Assembly: GCA_003554585.1 (NCBI GenBank)
Contig: PWGV01000084.1
Span: 1 to 40,011, forward strand
Source of the DNA: Halobacteroidaceae bacterium
GTDB taxonomy: Bacteria > Bacillota > Halanaerobiia > B1SED10-174
Direction: 5' to 3'
DNA: 40,011 bases
The stretch's first letter is position 1. The number at the start of each line of letters is the position of its first letter. The notes beneath the pieces are model-generated. The model worked only from the letters and a program-made list of their open reading frames with translations. It did no database searches and had not been told where the DNA came from. The translations under genes were made by a program, and so were the position numbers. This document shows, piece after piece, positions 15,385 through 27,624 of this stretch.

Positions 15385-15489
15385 CTCTTATCAAGAGTGG
15401 CGGAGGGACTGGCCCTATGAAGCCCGGCAACCGGCAGAAAGCCTGCACGGTGCTAATTCCAGCAGAACGATAGTTCTGGCAGATGAGAT
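15385..15489 (+). ncRNA. SAM-I (S-box) riboswitch aptamer
   Basis: The sequence follows the S-box consensus closely: P1 5' strand CTCTTATC (15385-15392), AGAGTGGCGGAGGGA, CTGGCCCTATGAAGCCCGGC, AACCGGC, GGTGCTAATTCC, and a 3' P1 strand GATGAGAT (15482-15489). SAM binding stabilises P1 and lets the following terminator form, so the metNIQ genes are expressed when SAM is low. Confidence 0.97.
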
Positions 15490-25884: not shown

Positions 25885-26409
25885 TTAACGTCGCGTTTCG
25901 CCTGCCAGTACTTTTAATTCAAAAACAGGCCAGAAAACAAAATCAGCCCTTCCTGAAATCTGTTCCAACCCAATAAAGCCCAAAGACGGGGAACGGCTAT
26001 CCAGGCTATTATTACGGTTATCTCCCATAACGAAAACCTTGTTTTCCGGAACTGGATAGGGCCCGTATTCCCCCACCATTCGTTCTTTCAGGTAGGGTTC
26101 GTTTATAATTTCACCATTAATATAGGTGAGTCCCCTCCTGATCTCAACTTTTTCACCGGGAAGTCCTACTATCCTTTTCAGGTATTCAGGATTATTATTG
26201 CCTGTTTTTAAAACTACAATATCGCCTCTTTGCGGAGAGGCGAAGCGATAGACCAGTTTATTTACCAGCAGCCGTTCTCCATTGGAAACCACCGGTTCCA
26301 TGGAGTTCCCTTCAACTATTGTGGGTTGGACAACGAATTGAACAGTTAAAAGGGCTATTAAAGCTGCCAGAGCTATTGTTTTTACCAAGACCCAGATTTC
26401 CCTCAGCAT
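25885..26409 (-). CDS. lepB: Signal peptidase I
   Basis: A 174-residue type I signal peptidase of the short Gram-positive form. One N-terminal membrane helix (residues 6-27), the nucleophile Ser36 in GNSMEP, the general base Lys78 in YLKRIVGLPGE, and box E GDNRNNSLDSR are all visible. It removes signal peptides of secreted proteins at the outer membrane face. A structured RNA with a terminator lies upstream and may be independent or an attenuating leader. The symbol lepB/sipS is used by homology. Confidence 0.95.
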   Translation of the reverse strand: MLREIWVLVKTIALAALIALLTVQFVVQPTIVEGNSMEPVVSNGERLLVNKLVYRFASPQRGDIVVLKTGNNNPEYLKRIVGLPGEKVEIRRGLTYINGEIINEPYLKERMVGEYGPYPVPENKVFVMGDNRNNSLDSRSPSLGFIGLEQISGRADFVFWPVFELKVLAGETRR

Positions 26410-26491
26410 CTTTTCACCCCGGCAAATAGCGATATAATTTAGCTATTCGCCTCAGCCCTTTAAATTCCTGCATAATTAAGGTTTGTCCAGT

Positions 26492-26512
26492 AAAAAACCG
26501 CCGGAGCGGCGG
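26492..26512 (-). terminator. Terminator of the candidate RNA
   Basis: CCGCCG (26498-26503) and CGGCGG (26507-26512) form a 6-bp all-GC stem with a three-base loop, followed on the minus strand by TTTTTT. Confidence 0.85.
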
Positions 26513-26609
26513 AAAGAGCTGGGACTGATGGCGGTCGAATACATGCCAGCCAGGACAACCATCCGGGTTACCATAATTCTCGATACCTTTCAGCCGCGCT
26601 CTTTTTTTA
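26492..26609 (-). ncRNA. Candidate structured RNA of unknown class, about 118 nt
   Basis: A sigma-A promoter is followed by a GC-rich segment (unlike the AT-rich surroundings) and a strong terminator. The 5' arm AAAGAGC (26598-26604) pairs perfectly with GCTCTTT (26513-26519), and just inside it GGCUGA pairs with UCAGUC, closing a domain of about 90 nt. Inside, GGUAAC/GUUGUC and GAAU/AUUC can pair. A 6-bp GC stem and T6 end the RNA. I looked for signatures of T-box, TPP, FMN, cobalamin, glycine, lysine, purine, c-di-GMP, SRP RNA and others and found none. It ends 83 bases before the signal peptidase start, so it could be a leader element or a stand-alone RNA. Confidence 0.6.
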
Positions 26610-26615
26610 CTTTCT

Positions 26616-26643
26616 ATTATATTTACAATTTTTCACCTGTCGA
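26616..26643 (-). promoter_or_regulatory. Sigma-A promoter of the candidate RNA
   Basis: TCGACA (26638-26643) and a perfect TATAAT (26616-26621) are 16 bases apart on the minus strand. The expected start near 26609 places the RNA's closing stem about five bases in. Confidence 0.7.
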
Positions 26644-26757: not shown

Positions 26758-27624
26758 TTATAATTTCCCGTAGTTTTCAATAATTTTTAGAATTTCAGGG
26801 ATTTTTTCTTCTGCTGCTTTCCGGCCCTGTTCAATAATTAAATCATAAGAACCCATCTGCGCTCCGCTAAAACCAGTGACATTGGGAGTAATTACCACAT
26901 CAGCATTCACTTCCATGATTCGGCCCCGTTGCATAAGGTTGTAGGTCCTGACTGCAACATCGATATAGCTATCAGGAGCCCCGTGAAAACTGAAGTTCTC
27001 ATTTAAACTAACGGCGATAACAATGTCAGCTCCCAGTTCCCAGGCCAGGTCATCAGGCAGATTCATCAAAACTCCCCCGTCAACCAAAAGCATCCCTTCA
27101 TAGCGAACGGGGTTGAAAATAATGGGCTGGGCTGAACTGGCGGCAACGGCAGTGCTGACCGAACCTTCTTTGAAAATAAAGATTTCCCCTTCAATTAAAT
27201 CTACGGCAACAATCCCAAACTTTTTTTCTAACTGGGAAAAATCATCGTGAGGTATATATTTTTTTACCTGGTTCATTATTCCCCGGGGGCTGAAAAAACC
27301 CAGGTCGGGAATTGCAGGAATGAGAAAATCCCAGTAACTGATGTTGTCCGCAACTTTTCTAATTTCTTTTGCAGTCATCCCATTGGCGTAAAGGGAACCT
27401 ACAATACTTCCGGCACTGGTTCCCGTAATTATATCAACTTCAATTCCGTGTTTTTCCAGGACCTCAATAACACCAATATGGGAAAAACCCCAGGATGCCC
27501 CACCGCTGAGAGCCAGACCAATTACAGGTTTTTTTGCTTCTTCCTGGGCGATAAGGAGCCCGGGCCAGGAAAAAAGAAGAAAGGTTATTAAGAAAAACAA
27601 CAGAGTTTTCTTGGTGGGAGTCAA
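26758..27624 (-). CDS. Patatin-like phospholipase with signal peptide
   Basis: A 288-residue RssA-type patatin. A hydrophobic leader (8-26) suggests export or membrane anchoring. The lipase elbow is GTSAG (Ser70) and the catalytic Asp is in VDGG (Asp182). The oxyanion segment, usually GGGARG, is GGASWG (41-46), with Trp where Arg/Lys is usual. Family members hydrolyse acyl-lipid or glycerophospholipid esters. The start is TTG with AGGAGG seven bases upstream. It is 33 bases after the AroM-family gene and probably in its operon. Confidence 0.88.
   Translation of the reverse strand: MTPTKKTLLFFLITFLLFSWPGLLIAQEEAKKPVIGLALSGGASWGFSHIGVIEVLEKHGIEVDIITGTSAGSIVGSLYANGMTAKEIRKVADNISYWDFLIPAIPDLGFFSPRGIMNQVKKYIPHDDFSQLEKKFGIVAVDLIEGEIFIFKEGSVSTAVAASSAQPIIFNPVRYEGMLLVDGGVLMNLPDDLAWELGADIVIAVSLNENFSFHGAPDSYIDVAVRTYNLMQRGRIMEVNADVVITPNVTGFSGAQMGSYDLIIEQGRKAAEEKIPEILKIIENYGKL

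Follow-up and report, generated by a model that had tools for sequence, protein, structure and literature searches.

A candidate RNA gene of about 118 nt lies between a patatin-like phospholipase gene and the signal peptidase I gene (lepB, also sip) in the window, a 40,011-nt contig of a 2.9-Mb metagenome-assembled genome. The transcription unit has good comparative support and the fold moderate support, and together they point to a real, uncatalogued RNA gene candidate. The reading we favor, with about even confidence on the basis of sequence comparison, is an autonomous small RNA gene of narrow distribution that has its own promoter and terminator and folds into a rod. A sigma-A-type promoter would drive the RNA and an intrinsic terminator would end it; the product would then act in trans as a regulator, with lepB as its neighbor and not its target. 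We infer this mode of action, as no conserved unpaired seed is visible and the apical loop is divergent among the three known copies. In favor of an autonomous small RNA, the promoter, rod, and terminator are conserved in three species of one genus, with the length unchanged. Against it stand the small number of sequences (three), a weak fold in one of them, the lack of a seed, and an unexpected masked ribosome-binding site. On the minus strand, the gene order is AroM-like, patatin-like phospholipase, RNA, signal peptidase I, and haemolysin-III-like, with the lepB ATG at 26409, about 82-83 nt past the terminator and its T run. The closest named relatives of the LepB protein come from sediment metagenome-assembled genomes labeled Halobacteroidaceae or Bacillota, whose isolate names suggest a soda-lake source.

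Table 1 Features of the RNA locus and its flanking genes, in window coordinates.
Feature	Position	Strand	Basis and remarks
Patatin-like phospholipase, gene upstream of RNA	26758..27624	-	PF01734, E = 3.4e-33
-35 box TCGACA	26638..26643	-	sequence and promoter scan
-10 box TATAAT	26616..26621	-	sequence and promoter scan; identical in G002 and G003
Candidate RNA gene, about 118 nt	26492..26610	-	ends inferred from signals: start a few nt past the -10 box, stop at the last T of the run
Closing stem P1, 5' arm AAAGAGC	26598..26604	-	sequence, folding; identical in G002, shortened in G003
Inner stem P2, 5' arm GGCTGA	26590..26595	-	folding; invariant in three species
Remnant Shine-Dalgarno GAAAGG (GAAAGGGGGTGA in both homologs)	26586..26591	-	anti-Shine-Dalgarno pairing
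Possible small reading frame, 32 codons, crosses the terminator	26476..26574	-	coding support weak
Inner stem P2, 3' arm TCAGTC	26523..26528	-	folding; present in all three species, with one C-to-U change that makes a G-U pair
Closing stem P1, 3' arm GCTCTTT	26513..26519	-	sequence, folding
Intrinsic terminator CCGCCG-CTC-CGGCGG, all-GC stem, then T6 (26492-26497)	26498..26512	-	sequence, scan
Signal peptidase I (lepB/sip), gene downstream of RNA	25885..26409	-	PF10502, E = 9.5e-46

A DNA search of 60 related genomes returned two true homologs, in G003 (80%) and G002 (78%), on contigs (L032 and L034) that were recovered independently through the LepB protein; the other, short AT-rich matches (about 20-35 nt) were set aside as promoter-like low complexity. 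Both homologs share the order patatin, RNA, lepB. With the whole unit of promoter, RNA, and terminator found at this position in two further species, the observation goes beyond chance. The fourth congener, G004 (L033/L046), has the patatin-lepB pair 87 nt apart without the cassette. The gap is 333-348 nt in the carriers, so the cassette, about 246 nt, is either there in full or missing altogether; the patatin tree is compatible with its loss in G004 or its gain in the others. A covariance model built from the three copies brought up no further credible copy in the family, order, and class (59 genomes) or in 300 genomes of the phylum. A match in G249 (27.7 bits) was judged to be chance, as it falls in apparent coding sequence, in an unrelated genome of the phylum. 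Orphan small RNAs restricted to a genus are common. Presence or absence as a block and the narrow distribution would also suit a cassette whose RNA product has no function. The cassette would then be either transcription punctuation, with a strong terminator structure separating lepB from the patatin gene, or a selfish insertion in decay. We regard this as unlikely, as a conserved promoter directly above the RNA (12 of 12 consensus positions in G002) makes no sense for an insulator, the rod is conserved beyond the terminator, and the cassette is single copy, with no flanking repeats and no match to phage, plasmid, or viral contigs that would indicate a mobile origin.

The predicted boundaries of the RNA are set by transcription signals that had been proposed in an earlier note on this sequence, and both are where that note placed them. 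The promoter, TCGACA-16-TATAAT (26643-26616), matches the consensus at 11 of 12 positions and tops the promoter scan. It is a perfect TTGACA-16-TATAAT in G002, and in G003 TTGAAA is spaced 15 nt from TATAAT or, alternatively, 18 nt from AATAAT; blastn similarity between the window and the G002 locus begins at the -10 box. The 261 bp around the RNA contain two promoter-like sites, one per strand, versus 0.4 expected, and two overlapping terminator-like sites versus 0.2 expected. The all-GC terminator with its T6 run has an identical stem in G002 and is rebuilt as a shifted 4-bp stem in G003, and breaking it costs about 10 kcal/mol (6 in G003). Counted from the nominal start through the last T of the run, the RNA measures 119 nt in the window, G002, and G003 alike. 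A search for alternative pairing found no competing antiterminator that would exclude the terminator; a mechanism driven by ribosomes could work without one. Given a conserved promoter and terminator of its own, a rod, and a strong terminator without an antiterminator, an autonomous small RNA is the simplest reading.

A comparison by segment shows that the RNA is conserved to the same degree as the neighboring genes. Against G002, the 3' end of the patatin gene is 75% conserved, the RNA 78%, and lepB 76%; the promoter is at 77% with both hexamers kept, and the spacer upstream of it is not alignable (z = -0.2). Against the closer G003, RNA and lepB are both at 83%, with the upper spacer at 73%. 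The segment from terminator to lepB (26410-26491, minus strand) is 88% conserved against G003 and 77% against G002, and its GCAGGAA...GGGCGAA core is kept even in the RNA-less G004, so that lepB does without the cassette there. This segment may contain the promoter of lepB, perhaps one read by an alternative sigma factor. No clear sigma-A promoter with at least 9 of 12 matches was found between terminator and lepB, and thus lepB could depend on read-through.

The predicted transcript forms a single long, imperfect hairpin closed by AAAGAGC/GCUCUUU, with the terminator immediately after it. The 7-bp closing stem and 6-bp inner stem described in the earlier note are both present as placed, the inner one including a G-U pair. 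The window RNA folds to -44.7 kcal/mol versus -33.3 ± 3.2 for its shuffles (z = -3.5, with 1 of 200 as good); the G002 copy stands out further (z = -5.6), and the G003 copy folds like its shuffles (z = -0.8). When random substitutions of the same kinds were applied to the window copy, 0 of 1000 reached the energy of G002, and in the opposite direction 36 of 1000 reached the energy of the window copy, so the substitutions between these two preserve or improve folding. With G003 as the end point, the outcome is ordinary (279 and 367 of 1000). These folding scores and substitution tests indicate that the rod is probably real in the window copy and G002 and relaxed in G003, which is short of proof of a conserved structure. 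A consensus structure for the three sequences has 88.9% of its cells paired, and G003 disrupts about 10 of its pairs. Stem conservation in relatives holds in part: P2 is kept in three species and P1 is identical in G002, but in G003 P1 is shortened and several pairs are broken. Covariation in the closing stems, which the earlier note had put forward as a check, was not seen beyond the level of shuffles: 2 of 39 pairs are altered on both sides, and three sequences are not enough to test covariation. That note had wavered between a new small RNA and an attenuation leader for lepB. Its unclassified, independently transcribed RNA is supported by the conserved promoter and terminator and by an RNA conserved like coding sequence; the covariation it proposed as a check lends no support from the three sequences.

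Within the rod lies a feature that the earlier note missed, a masked ribosome-binding site with a short reading frame. In both G002 and G003, GAAAGGGGGTGA is followed by an ATG at normal distance, and its pairing with the usual Firmicutes anti-Shine-Dalgarno, assumed for these genomes, reaches -20.6 kcal/mol versus -10.9 for lepB, a value attained by 0 of 500 dinucleotide shuffles. Most of the site is paired within the rod. In the window copy only the remnant listed in Table 1 is left; the best start there has -9.3 kcal/mol (95 of 500 shuffles) and none stands out. The strong but masked ribosome-binding site in two of the three copies could drive a short peptide, so the RNA may be dual-function or else a uORF leader. 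The frame has 51 codons in G002, stopping 4 nt short of the lepB ATG, and 18 codons in G003, where a one-base length difference near a T run shifts it; this frameshift may be genuine or reflect faulty assembly. The peptide is conserved between the window and G002 more than under random placement, with p = 0.03 in that frame, which is not significant after correction for six frames; such conservation is absent in comparisons with G003. The peptide (about 28 residues, not basic) has no Pfam match above cut-off, and the frame contains no codon run. Translation of the small frame is therefore possible. The reverse-strand frames were rejected, having neither coding support nor a Pfam match.

These features give rise to our main rival, a cis-acting lepB leader in which the rod masks the ribosome-binding site of a uORF; its opening would let translation melt the terminator and allow read-through into lepB. 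The RNA lies on the same strand as lepB, 83 nt upstream, with a terminator at its end, the strong site and ATG occur in both homologs, and in two of the species the frame runs across the terminator. The same set of elements (promoter, ribosome-binding site, start codon, structure, terminator) is found in published uORF-type leaders such as uORFC-13-1 (aroF) and uORFC-6-1 (hflX) (PMC8632094), in which, too, a structured RNA ahead of a gene contains the ribosome-binding site and the start codon. The locus differs from them in lacking both a codon run and a known arrest motif, in preceding a signal peptidase gene, and in a ribosome-binding site that has decayed in one of three species. With the site decayed in the window, the frame shifted in G003, marginal peptide conservation in a single pair, and a lepB without such a leader in G004, we consider a lepB leader possible but doubtful. 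That such a leader senses ribosomes and controls signal peptidase through the masked small frame running across the terminator seems to us improbable. We know of no such control for signal peptidase genes; if the masked site is functional, it would offer a test case for translational control of protein secretion capacity.

The absence of a stop ahead of the T run in the window and G002 frames also fits a small-protein mRNA with its terminator inside the frame, most of whose transcripts would be stopless and policed by tmRNA. Such nonstop messages are represented by brfA/arfA, and Bacillus subtilis brfA has its terminator within the coding region (PMC6881298). The anatomy fits, but the peptide does not, being short, non-basic, and without homology; moreover, the G003 frame is broken and the start codon is strongly masked. 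We consider this reading very unlikely.

The autonomous small RNA resembles known systems in part. SR1 is a dual-function bacterial small RNA, and like RNAs of the SR1 type, the candidate would be transcribed on its own as a short RNA that ends in a terminator and holds a small frame; it differs in that its putative peptide is not convincingly conserved, and no sequence relation between the two is shown. The rod shape recalls 6S RNA (RF00013) and SRP RNA (RF01854), but genuine 6S and SRP genes occupy other loci in these or sister genomes. In G000, G002, and G003, the 6S gene sits on a different contig. SRP RNA has no match at the locus and is carried elsewhere by G003; it was not found in the incomplete assemblies G000 and G002, although sister genomes have it, probably reflecting assembly gaps. 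The description "unclassified" in the earlier note agrees with Rfam 15, in which no family reaches its gathering score for the window copy or either homolog and permissive E-values give chance matches only, with no credible sub-threshold match. No tRNA or tmRNA identity was detected, and a literature search found no paper on this RNA. The locus adds a well-delimited, uncatalogued RNA gene candidate in a poorly studied, probably soda-lake lineage.

Three further observations concern the window. An ordinary SAM riboswitch (RF00162, 91.1 bits) at 15385-15489 on the plus strand is its sole Rfam match. On the same strand, a promoter-like TTTTCA-16-TATAAT at 26411-26438, present in G003 and not kept in G004, would transcribe antisense to the RNA. 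The rod is followed by T7 on the plus strand as well, and bidirectional termination is possible.
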